Assembly: GCA_030262725.1 (NCBI GenBank)
Contig: JAJSZS010000001.1
Coordinates: forward strand, 186,001 to 250,000
DNA: 64,000 nucleotides
Direction of reading: 5' to 3'
Source: Candidatus Desulfofervidus auxilii
GTDB lineage: Bacteria; Desulfobacterota; Desulfofervidia; Desulfofervidales; Desulfofervidaceae
In this document: positions 35,762 through 43,768 of the stretch, in pieces
Layout: every line of letters starts with the position of its first letter
Numbering within the stretch: position 1 is the stretch's first letter
Translations under genes and position numbers: made by a program
The notes under the pieces: model-generated
What the model saw: only the letters and a program-made list of their open reading frames with translations
Databases searched by the model: none
What the model was told of the DNA's origin: nothing

Positions 35762-35961
35762 TTGAAGAAAATTTGGCGTTTGCTATTAATTTTTGATCCA
35801 ATAGGCTTTCCACAGCGTGAGCAGCAATAATCATATTTCTCCCCTTCAGGAAGAATAAGAAGCAGTTTTTTCCTTACAGGCACTGTTTGCCTGCAATAAG
35901 GACAATAAAGTGTGGCAGCTTCAAATTCCTGATAGCCTTCTTCTTTAGGAATATCCTTCAT
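35758..35961 (-). CDS. small zinc-ribbon protein
   Basis: 67 residues with CPYC and CSRC knuckles about 25 residues apart (LYCPYCRQTVPV; CCSRCGKPIG), a zinc ribbon. Its ATG lies 17 nt inside the end of the ClpX-like gene and has no good ribosome binding site, so translation is probably coupled. The ClpX-like protein just upstream lacks the zinc domain of true ClpX, which makes this small ribbon interesting as a separate module. Function unproven. Confidence 0.6.
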   Translation of the reverse strand: MKDIPKEEGYQEFEAATLYCPYCRQTVPVRKKLLLILPEGEKYDYCCSRCGKPIGSKINSKRQIFFK

Positions 35962-37699
35962 AGGATCTTCGAATAAGTTGACGAATATAACCTTCTGGAT
36001 CTTTTAATGATTGGGCAGTAAGCTCAAAAATTGATTGCCCTGTTTTTTCTTTTACAAGTTTTAAACCAAATTCCAAATTTTGTGCAATTTCTCGGCAAAT
36101 ATTAACAATATCTTTTTCTTGAATAATTACATGAGAAAGAAGCTCATCTATTGCTTCTTCAGAAAGATGGCATTTAAGACCAGTTTCTTCATAAAATGTT
36201 TCAAAAAATGTGGTTACTTCTTTTATCCATCTGGCCATCTCTTGAAAACCATAGGTAAGATCATAATCAAATTTATCATAAGCATTAACAATGAGTTCAA
36301 TTCTTTTAGGTGTTAAATGAAGATCATATTGTTTAGCTAAAGCCTTTCCTTTATTTATGACAATTTCTCTAAGATATTTTTTTTCTTCTTTTAAAGCTTT
36401 TTCAAATCGTTTTTCACTTACTAGATCAATACTACCTTCTAGAATTTTCTTTAATGTTTCTTTTGGATTTAAAACCAATTCTTTTGTTACTACTAACCTT
36501 TTAATATCAGTAGAAGGTAAAGTTTTTTCAAAAGGTAAAAGGGTTTTTTCTAACACACTTACTAATCCTCTTGCACCTGTTCCTTCTTCTGAAGCCTTTT
36601 CTGCCAAAATGTGTAAAGCATCATCTTCAAACACAAGATCAATGCCATAAGCTCTAAAATCCTGTTTTTTAGCATTAATTACTACACTATTTGGATTCTT
36701 TAAAATTTGATAAAGGTCTTCTGTATTTAAATCTTCAAATACAGCAATTACTGGTAGGCGACCAATAAATTCAGATTCAAATCCATATTTAATTAAATCT
36801 TCTGGCTTTACATAGGGAAGATAACTATGTATTTCTTTTTTTGTAGTAATTTTTGCACCAAATCCCATCCCCTGCTGATGGAGACGCTGTTTAATAATCT
36901 CTTCTAAGTTATTAAAGGCACCACTCATTATAAAAAGAATATGTCTTGTATTTATTATACGTCGCTCTTTTTTCCCAGTGCGACGATAATGTTCTATTGC
37001 CTCTAATTGGGCAATTGGGTCAAATGGAGTTTTTAAATCAACCTCAGTTTCTTCCATGGGTTTTAAAAGGGCACGTTGGACACCAGTACGAGAGACATCT
37101 GGCCCAACAATCTCACCACTTGAAGCAATCTTATCTATTTCATCAATATAAATGATGCCAAATTGAGCAATTTCAATGTCATCATCTGCTTGATGAACAA
37201 GTTCTCTTACCAAATCTTCTACGTCTCCACCAACATAGCCTGTTTCACTAAATTTGGTTGCATCTCCTTTAACAAAAGGTACTCCAAGTTTTTGAGCAAT
37301 AAGTTTAATCATAAATGTTTTTCCTACCCCAGTAGGTCCAATCATCAAGATATTATTTTTTATATAATGAATCTTTTGCCAAGCATTTTCCCGATGTGTC
37401 AGCCAATATTTAATACGATTAAAATGAGTACAAATCTTTGTGGCAAGGATAGCTTTTGCTTCATCTTGTTTTACTACATATTGATCTAAATATGCAATAA
37501 GTTCTTCAGGCTTTAAATCAAAATTAATTTTAGAAAGGATACGTTTAGCAGAAGATTTTTCTTCTTTTCTTTCTGGCTTAGGCTGAAAAAAGGGGGCAGA
37601 AATAACCCTTACTCTATGTCCATATTTGCGAGCAAGATACTCATTAAGTTCCTTTTCCAATTCTTTTTGAGATGGTAATTCACTATCTTTAAATTCCAT
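35945..37699 (-). CDS. ClpX-like AAA+ ATPase lacking the N-terminal zinc domain
   Basis: 584 residues. The AAA+ core is clearly ClpX-like: Walker A GPTGVGKT, Walker B IIYIDEIDKI, pore loop ETGYVGGDVEDLV, a ClpP-loop-like MGFGA, EFIGRLPVIA and sensor-2 GARGL. It differs from ClpX in three ways: no CxxC zinc-binding N-terminus, a different N-terminal 75 residues, and about 150 extra C-terminal residues of helical sequence. Start set at 37699 (GGAGG upstream). Likely a protein unfoldase; whether it docks on ClpP is suggested only by the MGFGA loop. Confidence 0.82.
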   Translation of the reverse strand: MEFKDSELPSQKELEKELNEYLARKYGHRVRVISAPFFQPKPERKEEKSSAKRILSKINFDLKPEELIAYLDQYVVKQDEAKAILATKICTHFNRIKYWLTHRENAWQKIHYIKNNILMIGPTGVGKTFMIKLIAQKLGVPFVKGDATKFSETGYVGGDVEDLVRELVHQADDDIEIAQFGIIYIDEIDKIASSGEIVGPDVSRTGVQRALLKPMEETEVDLKTPFDPIAQLEAIEHYRRTGKKERRIINTRHILFIMSGAFNNLEEIIKQRLHQQGMGFGAKITTKKEIHSYLPYVKPEDLIKYGFESEFIGRLPVIAVFEDLNTEDLYQILKNPNSVVINAKKQDFRAYGIDLVFEDDALHILAEKASEEGTGARGLVSVLEKTLLPFEKTLPSTDIKRLVVTKELVLNPKETLKKILEGSIDLVSEKRFEKALKEEKKYLREIVINKGKALAKQYDLHLTPKRIELIVNAYDKFDYDLTYGFQEMARWIKEVTTFFETFYEETGLKCHLSEEAIDELLSHVIIQEKDIVNICREIAQNLEFGLKLVKEKTGQSIFELTAQSLKDPEGYIRQLIRRSYEGYS

Positions 37700-37761
37700 A
37701 ATAATTACCTCCATCATTATAATAATCCTGTTATCCTTTTCTGGCAAGTGGAAATTGCTTG

Positions 37762-37839
37762 TTGACAAAATATTATAGCCATGCTAGAGAAGGGAAGCTA
37801 GTAAATAGCTGATTTTTTATTTTTTAGGAGGTTTTTTAA
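37762..37839 (+). promoter_or_regulatory. cold-shock gene promoter and 5' leader
   Basis: TTGACA (37762-37767) with a weak TAGAGA 17 nt downstream. The roughly 50-nt leader contains a small hairpin AGCTA (37796-37800) / TAGCT (37806-37810) followed by a T-rich run and then TTAGGAGG before the ATG. A structured leader is usual for cspA-type genes. Confidence 0.4.
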
Positions 37840-38060: not shown

Positions 38061-38088
38061 AAGGCCTGCTTTTAGCAGGCCTTTTTTA
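38061..38088. terminator. Rho-independent terminator
   Basis: Stem AAGGCCTGC (38061-38069) / GCAGGCCTT (38075-38083) followed by a T run on the plus strand; A-rich on the other side, so it also serves the convergent prfB gene. Confidence 0.9.
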
Positions 38089-39187
38089 TTTTCTCTTAGT
38101 ATATAAAATATATGCTTCAATAAATTTATCTATTTCTCCATCTAAAACAATATCAGCTTGAGGAATTTCTAATTGAGTGCGATGGTCTTTGACCAAGCGA
38201 TGTGGGTGAAGAATATAGGTGCGAATTTGATTACCCCATGCAATTTCTTTTTGTTGAGCATAAATTTCTTTTTTCTTTTCTTCCCTTTTGCGACGCTCCA
38301 AATCATAAAGGCGAGATCTTAATATCATTAAAGCAATTTCTTTATTGCGATATTGAGATCTTTCATCTTGGCACTGTACTACTATACCTGTAGGTATGTG
38401 TGTGATTCTTACACCTGTTTCTACTTTATTAACATGTTGACCACCTGCTCCACTTGAACGAAAGGTTTCAATTTTTAAATCATTTTCTTTAATTTCTATA
38501 TGGATTTCCTCATCTACTTGAGGATAAATTGAAACAGCAGCAAAGGACGTATGTCTACGACCACTAGCATCAAAAGGGGAAATGCGAATAAGACGATGTA
38601 TGCCTGTTTCTCCTTTTAAAAGACCATAAGCATAAGAGCCTTCAATAAGAAAAGTAACACTTTTTATTCCTGCTTCTTCGCCTCTAGTAATATCTAAAAT
38701 TTTTGTTTTAAATCCCGATTTTTCTGCCCAACGAACATACATACGTAATAACATTTCTGCCCAATCTTGAGCATCAGTGCCACCTGCACCTGCATGAATT
38801 TCTATTATAGCATTAAGCTTATCACTAGGATCATCCAAAAGCCATTGAAGTTCTAATCTTTTTATTTTCCTTTCCCATTTAGCAATTTCATTAGCAATTT
38901 CCTTAAATGTATCTATATCATTTTCTTCACAAGCTAATTCATAAAGGATATTTAAGTCTTCTATAGCCTTTTTATATTCCTGCCATTGTCTTATTAGTTC
39001 CTCAAGTTGGCTTTTCTCTTTTAATAAAGGCTTTATTTTTTCAATACACTGCCAATCTTGATATTCAAGAAGTGTCTTTTCTAACTCTTTAAGACGGGAT
39101 ATTTTGATAGGGATGTCAAAGACACTCCCCTAATTTTATAAAACGAGTTTGAAGATTTTTTAAAGTTTCTCTAATTTCTTCCATCAT
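38086..39187 (-). CDS. prfB: peptide chain release factor 2, with programmed +1 frameshift
   Basis: Terminates translation at UGA/UAA. GGQ is in SSGAGGQHVNKVE and the RF2-specific tripeptide in ISPFDASG. The coding sequence is in two frames. The first 23 codons (MMEEIRETLKNL and on, starting at 39187) run to CTT-TGA-C at 39121-39115. A +1 shift skipping T39118 continues in the main frame to 38086, giving about 366 residues, the normal RF2 length. An AGGGGAG sequence just before CTTTGAC mimics the stimulatory Shine-Dalgarno known in E. coli. ATG 39184 is an alternative start. Follows lnt by 22 nt. Confidence 0.93.
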
Positions 39188-39209
39188 TAGCCTTTTTTAT
39201 TAAAATAAT

Positions 39210-40679
39210 CTATTTTAAGGAAAAGGCAAGGGTAAAAGTAATCAAAATTAAAAGAGAAATAAAACATAAAATATCACCATGGCGAACATAAAATGTCTGA
39301 TAACGTATAATTGGTATTTTATCAATAAGATAATCTCTTTTAAAAAGTTTTGTTTTTTTCAAAATATGACCAGTAGGTTCAATGAAGGCTGTGAAACCAG
39401 TATTTGCAACCCGTGGAATAGCCCGACGTGTTTCTATTGCTCTTAAAGTAAGCATAAAAAGGTGTTGATAGGGAGCACTTGTATAACCAAACCAGGCATC
39501 ATTAGTAATATTAACAAGGAATTCTGCTCCTTTTCTTACAGCTTCTCGACTCAATTCAGGAAAAATACTTTCAAAACAAATAAGCACACTAAACAAATAG
39601 TTATCAATTTTTAATACAGTCATTTCTTTTCCTGGTGTAAAATCACCAATATTACTAGCAATAGCTGAAAGAAAAGGAAATAATTTTCTACATGGTATAT
39701 ATTCGCCAAAAGGTACTAAATGTACTTTATCATAATATCCTTTAATTTTCCCATTTTTATCAATAAGATAAGCTCTATTAAAATAAACAATTTTTTTGCC
39801 TTTCCATTCATAAGCAGGACTACCTGTAAGAATAGGGGTATTTATTGTGCGAGCTAAATTTAAAATTTCTTCTCTAAAAGGAGATAATTCTTGTAAGTAA
39901 AAAGGTAAAGCAGTTTCAGGCCAAATTATTAAATCGATAGATTTTTGTGTCACTTTTTTTGTTAATTTTTTGTATATTTTTATTGTCTCTGTTTGAAATT
40001 TTGGATCCCATTTTTGAGCTTGATTTATATTGCCCTGAATAAGGGCAAGTTTTAGATGAGGTTTTTTAAAAGAAATTTTTTGCCAAAAAATAAGGCGATT
40101 ATGACCATAAAAAAGAGCAAGGACAAAAACTATAATAAAAAAGATAAAATTTGCTTTTTTATCCTTTTTGAGGATGAAATAAAAAATAGAGGCATTTCCC
40201 CACATGATTAAGAAAGAGATTAAATAAACTCCACCAATTTCAGCTATTTGAATAAAAGTTAACCAGCGATATTGAGAATCACCTAATAACATCCAGGGAA
40301 AACCAGTAAAGAGATGTCCTCTAATATATTCTAAACCTACCCAAATAGCTGCTATTAATGGGGGATGTTCCCAAGGTAAGATACGTAAAATATAGCAAAA
40401 AATAGCAAAATAAAGAGAAAGATAAAAAATAAGTAAAAAAAGTAAAAAAATAGCCAAAAAAATAGAAATATTACCATAACATACTACTGCATAAACAATC
40501 CAATATAAGATTCCTAAAAAAAATATACTACCTGTTATAAATCCTTTTAAAAAAGCTCTATTTGGTGTTGTTTCTCTTATAGAAAAAAATAAAGGTAGAA
40601 AACCCACCCAGGCCAAGGGATAAATCCCAAAAGGAGGATGGGCAAGGATTAATAGTAAACTTGAGAAAAAGGGAAACAT
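39210..40679 (-). CDS. lnt: apolipoprotein N-acyltransferase
   Basis: Adds the third acyl chain to outer-membrane lipoproteins, a Gram-negative trait. 489 residues with N-terminal membrane segments and a C-terminal nitrilase domain. The catalytic triad is visible: Glu in LIWPETALPF, Lys in YDKVHLVPFGEY, Cys in VLICFESIFPE. One further transmembrane helix ends the protein. It lies upstream of prfB in the same direction. Confidence 0.92.
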   Translation of the reverse strand: MFPFFSSLLLILAHPPFGIYPLAWVGFLPLFFSIRETTPNRAFLKGFITGSIFFLGILYWIVYAVVCYGNISIFLAIFLLFLLIFYLSLYFAIFCYILRILPWEHPPLIAAIWVGLEYIRGHLFTGFPWMLLGDSQYRWLTFIQIAEIGGVYLISFLIMWGNASIFYFILKKDKKANFIFFIIVFVLALFYGHNRLIFWQKISFKKPHLKLALIQGNINQAQKWDPKFQTETIKIYKKLTKKVTQKSIDLIIWPETALPFYLQELSPFREEILNLARTINTPILTGSPAYEWKGKKIVYFNRAYLIDKNGKIKGYYDKVHLVPFGEYIPCRKLFPFLSAIASNIGDFTPGKEMTVLKIDNYLFSVLICFESIFPELSREAVRKGAEFLVNITNDAWFGYTSAPYQHLFMLTLRAIETRRAIPRVANTGFTAFIEPTGHILKKTKLFKRDYLIDKIPIIRYQTFYVRHGDILCFISLLILITFTLAFSLK

Positions 40680-40716: not shown

Positions 40717-41655
40717 TTATCCCATTACCAAAGCCTCCTTAGGCACACCAAAAACCTGGGCGAGTTTTTCTATATTTTTCCCTTTAGGGATAGATTTCCC
40801 TTTTTCCCACATGTTTACAGTAATACGTGCACAACTTAATTTTTTTGCCAATTGTTCTTGTGTCCATCCATGTAATCGTCTTAACATTCTAATCTTTTTG
40901 CCAATCTCTCCCTGCCGGCATGCACGCCGATATTGTGCATCAAATGCCCTTTTCACCATTTTCTCCAGCAATTTCCGTCCAATTCTAACTATTTTGGCTA
41001 TTTCAGTATTCTTATCACTAAAATAAAGTTGTTCAAACAGAATAAAAGTGGCACATGCTACTGGTAAGGCATTTCCAAACTCTGTTTGCAAACGTTTAAT
41101 TATTTCTTCCCTAGCTAATATTTTACCTTTTTCATCTTTAAACAATGGAATAATATGCTTTTCCAAATATTGATTAACTAATTTTTCCCAATTAGGTGTC
41201 TGTAAGCTCTTTTTTGCCTTTAACAATTTTTGTCTTACTGCTTCACGAGTTAGTCCATAATCTTTACCAATTTCGCTCAGCGTTTCTCCATAAAAATAAC
41301 GGCGGATAAAGAAAACCCTTTCTTTTTCAGGAACAAAACGTGCCATTTTCTGTAAGATCTCTGTAAAAGGAGTTTTTAAGAAATCCGCCTCCACATCGTG
41401 CCAATTTGACACAAATTGTGCCAATTTGGACATTAAACTTTCTACTGAACGATACCAAAGATTACGAAGTGTCAATGCTTTATTTACAGGTGTTTCTGCT
41501 AAGTGACCAATAGTCTTAATGTTCAAAGCGGCACACAATTTTGCTTCTCTCTCATTAAGAACAAGACATTCTACAGGATGATTTTTAAAAGGTCGTAATT
41601 GATTTAAATTAATTTTTTCACCAAAAGTTGTCACTTTTTTAGCTACAGCTCTCAT
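40717..41655 (-). CDS. regulator fusing alphaCTD-like, sigma70 region 4-like and XRE helix-turn-helix domains
   Basis: 312 residues. About 30-80 resembles the RNA polymerase alpha C-terminal domain (LNEREAKLCAALNIKTIGHL, then LTLRNLWYRSVESL). About 101-151 matches sigma70 region 4 (VPEKERVFFIRRYFYGETLS, then EIGKDYGLTREAVRQKLLKA). About 251-310 is an XRE/Cro helix-turn-helix (MLRRLHGWTQEQLAKKLSCA, then ITVNMWEKGKSIP). A basic helical linker of about 100 residues lies between. Start at ATG 41655 with AAGGAGGG. It looks like a transcription factor with a polymerase-interaction module; targets unknown. Lies between a radical SAM gene and lnt. Confidence 0.72.
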   Translation of the reverse strand: MRAVAKKVTTFGEKINLNQLRPFKNHPVECLVLNEREAKLCAALNIKTIGHLAETPVNKALTLRNLWYRSVESLMSKLAQFVSNWHDVEADFLKTPFTEILQKMARFVPEKERVFFIRRYFYGETLSEIGKDYGLTREAVRQKLLKAKKSLQTPNWEKLVNQYLEKHIIPLFKDEKGKILAREEIIKRLQTEFGNALPVACATFILFEQLYFSDKNTEIAKIVRIGRKLLEKMVKRAFDAQYRRACRQGEIGKKIRMLRRLHGWTQEQLAKKLSCARITVNMWEKGKSIPKGKNIEKLAQVFGVPKEALVMG

Positions 41656-41697
41656 AACTCCCTCCTTTTTATTTATAGGTAGCACATTTTTTGCTTA

Positions 41698-43047
41698 TTA
41701 GCAAGAGTCATGCCAGATTTTTCTTTTTAAATCTCTTACATCCTCCCAAGATAAGGTGAAATGAGCACAGGGAAGGAGGGAGTTATTGTGCGTAATGGGC
41801 TCATTTACAAGATCATAAGGACTTTCTGTCACAGCCTTTTTCCAAAGAGGTGTGCCAGGAATGGGTGAATATTCTGCTAACCTAGGAGTAATACCAAGAT
41901 TTTTAACAAAAAAAATACTTTCTTCTACTTCTGTGCGGGTTTGACCCGGTAAACCGATTAAAAGATATGCACCAATTTGTTGTGGAGAGAAATCAGCTTC
42001 ATAAAGATAACGAACAGCTTTTATAAATTCTTCTTTAGTTATTTTTTTATCTAATCGATTTTTGCTACTTGTTTCAAGTCCTAATCTTATTGTCTTTACT
42101 CCAGCCAATTTCATTAATTTAGCTATTTTAGGAGTGATAAATCGAGCATGTAGACCATTTGGGGTATGAAATTCAACATTTATTTTACTCTTTATAATCA
42201 TTTCAAAAAGTGGAATTATATGTTTTTCAGCATTTATTAATAAGGCATCATCATAAAAAGCAAATATTTTTACTCCATATTGCTTATGCCAAAAAATTAT
42301 TTCTTTAAATACATCTTCAGGAGGACGTTGATAAAAATTGGGGAAAAGCAGAGAAGAAGCACAATAAGGACAGCTGAAAGGACATCCCCTAGATGTTAAA
42401 AGACAAACATAATCAATACTATTAAGTAAATCAAAAGCTGGATAAGGTAATTCTGGATCATATCCTAATTTTGGAACATATTCTAATTTGGAAGAAGTAA
42501 TTTCTTCTAAAAGAGTGGGTAAATTGATTTCAGCAGGTCCCTTTAATACAAAATCTGCTCCACTAAATTTAATAGCATGTTCATAACAAAGAGTAGCATA
42601 AATACCACCTAAAATTATAGGTACTTGAGGCCACTTTTTTTTGCATATATTAATCACAGAAAATACACCAGGATACCAATAAGTCATACCTGATGTAATA
42701 AGGATAATATCTGGTTGTGGTATTTTGTTTAATTCTTCCCAAAAAATACGTGGTGTTAAACCAAAACGATAATAATATCTAGGGATATGGGCTAGAAAAA
42801 TAGGTTTAGGAATATTTTGACGAAAAAATTTACCTGTACCATCAGATCTTCTTTTAGCAGGTTTTACATAAGGCTCAGAGATCATTTTTGGATGATGAAC
42901 ATTTAAACAATCAATAAAATACACTTTCCATCCATTTCTTCTTAACCAACTAGCTATATAAAGCAGTCCTAAAGGTTTTGCCCAATAGTCATGAGCAGCA
43001 AAATCATAAATCCAGGGATTAATAAGTAAACAACATAGTTTACTCAT
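41698..43047 (-). CDS. B12-binding-type radical SAM protein
   Basis: 449 residues. The N-terminal Rossmann-like half resembles B12-binding domains (LLINPWIYDFAAHDYWAKPLG) but no D-x-H-x-x-G cobalamin motif is seen. The radical SAM cluster is SRGCPFSCPYCASS (C-x3-C-x2-C), followed by AFYDDALL and ETSSKNRLDKKI. Substrate unknown; such proteins are common in anaerobes. The ATG at 43047 overlaps the rlmB stop by 8 nt; the longer frame reads back into rlmB and is rejected. Confidence 0.77.
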   Translation of the reverse strand: MSKLCCLLINPWIYDFAAHDYWAKPLGLLYIASWLRRNGWKVYFIDCLNVHHPKMISEPYVKPAKRRSDGTGKFFRQNIPKPIFLAHIPRYYYRFGLTPRIFWEELNKIPQPDIILITSGMTYWYPGVFSVINICKKKWPQVPIILGGIYATLCYEHAIKFSGADFVLKGPAEINLPTLLEEITSSKLEYVPKLGYDPELPYPAFDLLNSIDYVCLLTSRGCPFSCPYCASSLLFPNFYQRPPEDVFKEIIFWHKQYGVKIFAFYDDALLINAEKHIIPLFEMIIKSKINVEFHTPNGLHARFITPKIAKLMKLAGVKTIRLGLETSSKNRLDKKITKEEFIKAVRYLYEADFSPQQIGAYLLIGLPGQTRTEVEESIFFVKNLGITPRLAEYSPIPGTPLWKKAVTESPYDLVNEPITHNNSLLPCAHFTLSWEDVRDLKRKIWHDSC

Positions 43048-43768
43048 GACGTTTACGAAAAATTTCATAAAGACAAATAGCTGCTGCTGTTGCAACATTT
43101 AGAGAATTAACATCTTTCATCATAGGGATAGTAATAAGAAAATCACATTTTTGTCTGATAAGTCGACTTATACCTTTATGTTCATGACCAATAACAAGTC
43201 CTAAACGTAAATCTGTCTTTAATTCCCAAATAGGTTTTCCTCCTTTAACTACAGTGCCAGCAATCCAAAAACCGGCAGATTTAAGTTTATCTATAGTTTG
43301 CGCTAAATTTGTAACCTGAACAATTTTTATTTTAAATACTGTACCTGCTGATACTTTAATGACTGTAGGTGTAATATTAGCTGCCCGATCTTTAGGTAAA
43401 ATAATACCTTTAACACCAAAGGCACAAGCACTGCGAATAATATTTCCAAGATTTTGTGGATCTTGAATATGGTCAAGAATAAGGAGAAAATTAGTAGTTA
43501 TTATTTCTTCTAATTCAGCATAATAAAATGTTTTTAATCTTGCTACCACTCCTTGATGAACAGGTTTTGGAGTAATATTTTTTAAAAGATAATCTAAATT
43601 TATTCGTGGATATATTTTTATATTTATCCCTTTATCTCTTGCTATAGAAATTAATTGTTGTTTCTTTCTGTTAGTTAAACCTTCAGCTATAAATATTATA
43701 TCAATTTTTTTTGGACAGCGCTTTAAAATTTCTAAGACTGGCTGAAATCCGTATATATAATTTACCAT
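43040..43768 (-). CDS. rlmB: 23S rRNA (guanosine-2251-2'-O)-methyltransferase, TrmH/SpoU family
   Basis: 242-residue SPOUT methyltransferase. The N-terminal L30e-like substrate domain carries YGFQPVLEIL. The SAM knot shows DPQNLGNIIRSACAFG, GHEHKGISRL and IPMMKDVNSLNVATAAAI. RlmB is the most likely member; another TrmH-family rRNA/tRNA methylase cannot be excluded. First of the rlmB to prfB run. Confidence 0.87.
   Translation of the reverse strand: MVNYIYGFQPVLEILKRCPKKIDIIFIAEGLTNRKKQQLISIARDKGINIKIYPRINLDYLLKNITPKPVHQGVVARLKTFYYAELEEIITTNFLLILDHIQDPQNLGNIIRSACAFGVKGIILPKDRAANITPTVIKVSAGTVFKIKIVQVTNLAQTIDKLKSAGFWIAGTVVKGGKPIWELKTDLRLGLVIGHEHKGISRLIRQKCDFLITIPMMKDVNSLNVATAAAICLYEIFRKRHE

Follow-up and report, generated by a model that had tools for sequence, protein, structure and literature searches.

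Within the 64,000-nucleotide stretch of Candidatus Desulfofervidus auxilii DNA that was analyzed (the window), one gene encodes a small protein in which a domain like the C-terminal domain of the RNA polymerase alpha subunit (alpha-CTD), a sigma70 region 4 and a Cro/C1-type (XRE) helix-turn-helix (HTH) are joined. The question raised by this locus is what such a protein, hereafter the regulator, does with three DNA-reading modules. The first-pass annotation of the window had suggested that it might bind -35-like DNA and recruit or redirect polymerase. Comparison among relatives suggests something narrower than polymerase recruitment, a putative autoregulator with a single strong site in each genome. 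The features on which the analysis is based are listed in Table 1.

Table 1. Coordinates of the regulator gene, its domains, its neighbors and the upstream dyad in the window
Feature	Position	Strand	Remarks
Regulator gene	40717..41655	-	312 aa: alpha-CTD-like, sigma region 4, helical segment, XRE HTH
Alpha-CTD-like domain, residues 28-80	41416..41574	-	Profile, profile-profile, segment Pfam and fold evidence
RpoD-type sigma region 4 and C-terminal helix, residues 98-172	41140..41364	-	Pfam core 109-151; profile-profile
Sigma 4 recognition helix TREAVRQ, residues 136-142	41230..41250	-	Invariant in 5 orthologs
Helical segment, residues 155-248	40912..41193	-	No known family found
Cro/C1-type (XRE) HTH, residues 251-312	40720..40905	-	Pfam HTH_3; fold match to P22 c2
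rlmB-type 23S rRNA methyltransferase gene	43040..43768	-	First gene of apparent operon
B12-binding radical SAM protein gene	41698..43053	-	Directly upstream of regulator
lnt apolipoprotein N-acyltransferase gene	39210..40679	-	Directly downstream of regulator
Conserved 34-bp dyad, GGCATGACTCTTGC-TAATAA-GCAAAAAATGTGCT	41681..41714	-	Proposed operator or mRNA hairpin

The ATG at 41655 opens a frame of 312 codons plus the stop. A GTG-started extension reaching 41685 is possible; a Shine-Dalgarno-like AGGAGGGAG and the aligned starts of the orthologs favour the ATG as the probable start. The identities and the order of the three domains, as read by eye in the first-pass annotation, were borne out by profile and fold tests, to which the analysis adds the helical segment of about 90 residues between sigma 4 and XRE, and the upstream dyad. 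Neither sigma region 2 nor the N-terminal assembly domain of the polymerase alpha subunit was detected in the regulator (Pfam, E<=1), and sigma region 3 was not found in it. The earlier statement that a protein lacking region 2 is no normal sigma factor also held, all four region 2 domains of the genome lying in ORFs that carry region 4. The protein is an XRE-type regulator with added polymerase-derived modules, and the joining of XRE to the alpha-CTD/sigma 4 pair is what sets it apart.

The alpha-CTD-like domain was the weakest of these calls by eye. PF03118 was unlisted when the full-length protein was searched by hmmscan; the isolated N-terminal segment matched it in all five orthologs (E 1.1e-4 to 0.055), each time below the curated Pfam cut-off. 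When a five-ortholog profile of residues 11-97 was compared with 177,635 PDB sequences, all 13 matches at E<=10 were RNA polymerase alpha-CTDs (best E 0.019). Profile-profile comparison with 26 RpoA CTDs gave a score of 29.3 (E 7e-5), the best of 100 column shuffles reaching 17.3 and RpoD region 3 reaching 12.6; the alternative that residues 25-80 are a remnant of sigma region 3 was rejected on this difference (12.6 vs 29.3). Modeled by itself with AF2 (mean pLDDT 67), the segment superimposed on the E. coli alpha-CTD (1lb2) with a Z of 7.8 and 1.4 A over 61 residues, and in the fold search rows 1-24 were all alpha-CTDs, followed by N-terminal domains of RAD51. A Z of 7.8 would be indecisive on its own for a small helical domain; the assignment of residues ~28-80 as an alpha-CTD-like domain, predicted from sequence and model, is convincing because the PDB profile and the profile-profile comparison agree with it. 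Residues 30-80 had been named in advance as the place where the three-domain reading could fail, and it withstood the sequence-profile, profile-profile and structural comparisons made there.

The regulator has the CTD fold and much of the sequence pattern of the alpha subunit, from which it differs in lacking the assembly domain and at several functional positions. According to a gapless alignment made by us, through which the E. coli numbering was assigned, R265 and S299 correspond to the invariant R36 and S70, and K298 to R69 (K in one ortholog), whereas the DNA-contact positions N268, G296 and E302 are replaced by K39, W67 and S73. Positions D259 and E261, which contact sigma 4 in E. coli, are C30 and V32 in the regulator.

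The two HTH modules were recognized far over the Pfam cut-offs, Sigma70_r4 (PF04545) at residues 109-151 with an E of 2.4e-13 and HTH_3 (PF01381) at residues 255-307 with an E of 2.1e-15. By profile-profile comparison, sigma 4 resembles RpoD along 72 columns, the last helix among them (probability 97%, E 1.2e-11), and the residues R584, E585, R588 and Q589 of sigma70 are matched by R137, E138, R141 and Q142, invariant in the five orthologs. The regulator thus keeps the -35-reading residues and the C-terminal helix of an RpoD-type sigma factor without its region 2. The earlier suggestion that it could bind -35-like DNA is plausible from this conservation. The XRE domain matched the fold of P22 c2 with a Z of 12.1 and 1.2 A over 66 residues; fold searches with the full-length model were filled with XRE matches and were uninformative for the other parts. 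The segment between sigma 4 and XRE was predicted to form long helices and matched nothing over cut-off in Pfam and nothing in PDB by profile. A match of phrog_351 over residues 99-244 was not confirmed beyond sigma 4.

The regulator was found in five of the six genomes of the class (G000 and G002-G005), once in each; the lineage of Candidatus Desulfofervidus comprises heat-loving sulfate-reducing bacteria. The other four orthologs are 64-78% identical to the window protein. The sixth genome (G001) has neither the regulator nor the radical SAM gene, nor a good match to rlmB. No other full-length relative was detected among 395 genomes of the phylum, and no relative in viral contigs. Beyond the class, one protein in these 395 genomes was clearly matched across alpha-CTD and sigma 4, a protein of 1048 aa from genome G334 with two copies of PF03118 (E 7e-21) followed by sigma 4. 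It adjoins homologs of PbeC (E 8e-267) and PbeA (E 4e-206) and a DNA methylase; its gene (L138 6172-9318, G334:C2) is also close to an integrase. Additionally, a relative with both domains is encoded on an Aurantiacibacter plasmid (WP_063612567), near a gene annotated as 'DNA modification system-associated'; the plasmid copy (NZ_CP015441, L136 3079-4392) is apparently interrupted by an IS3 transposase. PbeA-D have been described (PMC10853773), and the accessible part of that description does not include an alpha-CTD/sigma-4 component of Pbe/CxC-DndE-type systems. Weak tblastn matches over both N-terminal domains in plasmid and phage records (Cupriavidus, gut phages) came from ordinary RpoD-type sigma factors that carry regions 2-4, and in a Sphingosinicella match the alpha-CTD was not evident by eye.

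Both larger proteins carry the name 'sigma factor-like helix-turn-helix DNA-binding protein' and place alpha-CTD before sigma 4 as the regulator does, with similar spacing in that of G334. Unlike the regulator, neither was found to contain XRE and both have Pbe/Dnd-type defence genes as neighbors, and they have a long C-terminal part, in G334 without Pfam matches over cut-off, that the regulator lacks. The first-pass annotation did not recognize the combination of domains as a characterized family. Neither this combination nor an alpha-CTD/sigma-4 fusion was found described in the literature searched; the pair itself is not unique, because the same order recurs in these two proteins.

In the window the regulator belongs to a same-strand run, rlmB - B12-radical SAM - regulator - lnt - prfB. 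This is a housekeeping neighborhood (rlmB, lnt and prfB), not one of defence or DNA modification genes, and it is partly conserved within the class. Of the five genomes with the regulator, four (G000, G002, G003 and G004) have the radical SAM gene directly upstream of it; this gene was rejected as an obligate neighbor since it is not adjacent in G005, where lnt and then prfB come after the regulator, the same order as in the window. The radical SAM protein of the window gave no NCBIfam equivalog over cut-off. Two other observations were made in this run and nearby: prfB (38086-39209, minus strand) is read in two frames, LGECL-stop and then FDIPIK, matching the programmed frameshift usual in release factor 2, and the frame at 35945-37768 (minus strand) encodes a 607-aa AAA+ protein, ClpX/HslU-like by eye and longer than usual.

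The chief new finding falls outside the regulator gene itself: the dyad, which spans the radical SAM stop codon and ends 25 bp before the regulator ATG. Alignment of the upstream regions of G000, G002, G003 and G004, which represent three genera, yields CTCTTGC-N4-AAGCAAAAARTGTGCTA, with the symmetric form RGCACNNYTYTTGC-N6-GCAARARNNGTGCY; the upstream region of the most distant ortholog, in G005, is cut by a contig end. In the right arm, 16 of 17 columns are identical in the four genomes. This arm is essentially non-coding in three of them and coding in G004, in which the stop codon of the relatives is missing and the radical SAM frame (L006 3496-5004) continues across the dyad to a 4-base overlap with the start of the regulator. 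The left arm falls within the final codons of the radical SAM gene, which encode W-H-x-S-C, and its conservation is thus partly coding; in its last three codons the third positions are invariant as well. Close kinship does not account for the conservation of the dyad, because the flanking fourfold sites are saturated, only 8 of 166 being identical in all four genomes (5/65 in the regulator and 3/101 in the radical SAM gene).

The dyad accompanies the regulator. The 15-mer AGCAAAAARTGTGCT has one exact copy in each of the four genomes, always upstream of the regulator gene. When up to 3 mismatches are allowed, the six genomes of the class contain no further site of the full symmetric pattern. 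With up to 2 mismatches this pattern occurred in 4 of 297 genomes, once in each and beside the regulator gene; since the pattern was derived from these four sites, their presence is by construction and the result is its absence elsewhere, the reversed control pattern being matched in two genomes. No dyad was found in G001, which lacks the regulator, and none at the radical SAM gene of G005, after which the regulator is not the next gene; the element thus tracks the regulator rather than the radical SAM gene. Across the relatives, no shared word of at least 11 bases was detected upstream of rlmB or of the radical SAM gene.

The usual signature of an autoregulator is a conserved symmetric element next to the gene of an HTH protein, with no other copy of the full pattern, and for this reason we lean modestly toward a sequence-specific DNA-binding regulator that would control its own expression through the single dyad upstream of its start codon. 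In this respect it resembles the XRE (Cro/C1) autoregulators P22 c2, SinR and DicA, with which it shares the HTH_3 fold and a symmetric element beside its own gene. It differs from them in that its XRE domain is C-terminal, after the alpha-CTD and sigma 4 modules, and in that their sites are simple and of ~14-17 bp, whereas the dyad has 34 bp and four boxes. A dimer of the regulator would bind two symmetric half-sites, RGCAC-NN-YTYTTGC, each with two conserved boxes ~9 bp, or about one helical turn, apart; this spacing would suit a protomer with two HTH modules, XRE and sigma 4, and the alpha-CTD-like domain might add a contact to nearby DNA. The bound protein could then occlude a promoter within the dyad or stop RNA polymerase that comes from the rlmB and radical SAM genes, and negative feedback would limit the regulator and, where linked, lnt. 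The scan tool found no consensus sigma-70 promoter at the dyad in the window; in the relatives the sequence can be read as a promoter, TTGCnn-17-TATTTT/TATTAA, whose spacer is covered by the dyad, below the thresholds of the scan. As a promoter there would be weak, and none was scored, repression by occlusion appears the likeliest effect. The sequences themselves show the domains with their conservation and a dyad that is constrained and unique; binding, dimerization, the assignment of domains to boxes, the promoter at the dyad and repression we infer.

A single site fits autoregulation, but would equally be expected of a cis-acting RNA element. The chief rival is accordingly that the dyad is an mRNA hairpin serving attenuation, processing or translational control, the DNA targets of the regulator lying elsewhere. 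This we hold to be unlikely, while keeping it as the main alternative, since the observed changes do not separate DNA from RNA. The dyad lies between two co-directional genes, all four sequences fold to the same stable stem-loop (z -2.8, -3.9, -2.9 and -5.2), and most of the changes in the left arm leave G-U pairs. However, where pairing is kept the change is a transition on one side, which yields G-U in any case, and no two-sided compensation was seen; one pair is lost (A-A in the window). Moreover, no Rfam family was matched over its gathering score, and a conserved U-tract, as for a terminator, is absent in the window.

A second alternative returns to the polymerase. At the beta flap and at the -35 element, sigma 4 of the regulator might take the place of RpoD region 4 or compete with it, and XRE would give promoter specificity, as in sigma appropriation or recruitment. 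The RpoD-like region 4, with its C-terminal helix and -35 residues, agrees with this, as does the side-by-side position of alpha-CTD and sigma 4 on natural promoters (PDB 3n97, matched in the fold search). We nevertheless regard it as improbable: regions 2 and 3 were not detected, the positions by which the E. coli alpha-CTD contacts sigma 4 are C and V here, and a single strong site in each genome offers little ground for supposing a general modifier of polymerase. Little probability is likewise given to a polymerase-mimicking form of autoregulation, in which the three modules would align on one promoter in the manner of the holoenzyme's upstream contacts: alpha-CTD would contact the AT-rich flank upstream, the TTGC box would serve as a -35 for sigma 4 and XRE would occupy the spacer, so that the protein might use its fused polymerase modules to compete with promoter recognition or to rebuild it.

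The larger alpha-CTD/sigma-4 proteins appear to be defence-related, the one in G334 lying beside PbeA/PbeC homologs and a DNA methylase and the plasmid one near the modification-associated gene, and the regulator could be a defence-related DNA-binding factor of the same sort; with rlmB, lnt and prfB as its neighbors, and with XRE instead of the long C-terminal part, this is very improbable. Finally, since region 4 occurs here without region 2 in one protein, as in SigO/RsoA, the two-part sigma of Bacillus subtilis, the regulator might be half of a split sigma factor, but this is scarcely credible, the partner with region 2 only not having been found among the four Sigma70_r2 ORFs of the genome (within the sensitivity of Pfam). 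The regulator also differs from that system in its additional alpha-CTD and XRE domains.

The autoregulator reading is directly testable, as the protein is a small natural fusion of two polymerase-derived DNA-reading modules and a repressor-type HTH with a specific predicted site. It would show how alpha-CTD and sigma region 4, which contact adjacent DNA on ordinary promoters, can be reused as free-standing operator readers, and whether such a fusion merely occludes a promoter or speaks to the polymerase.
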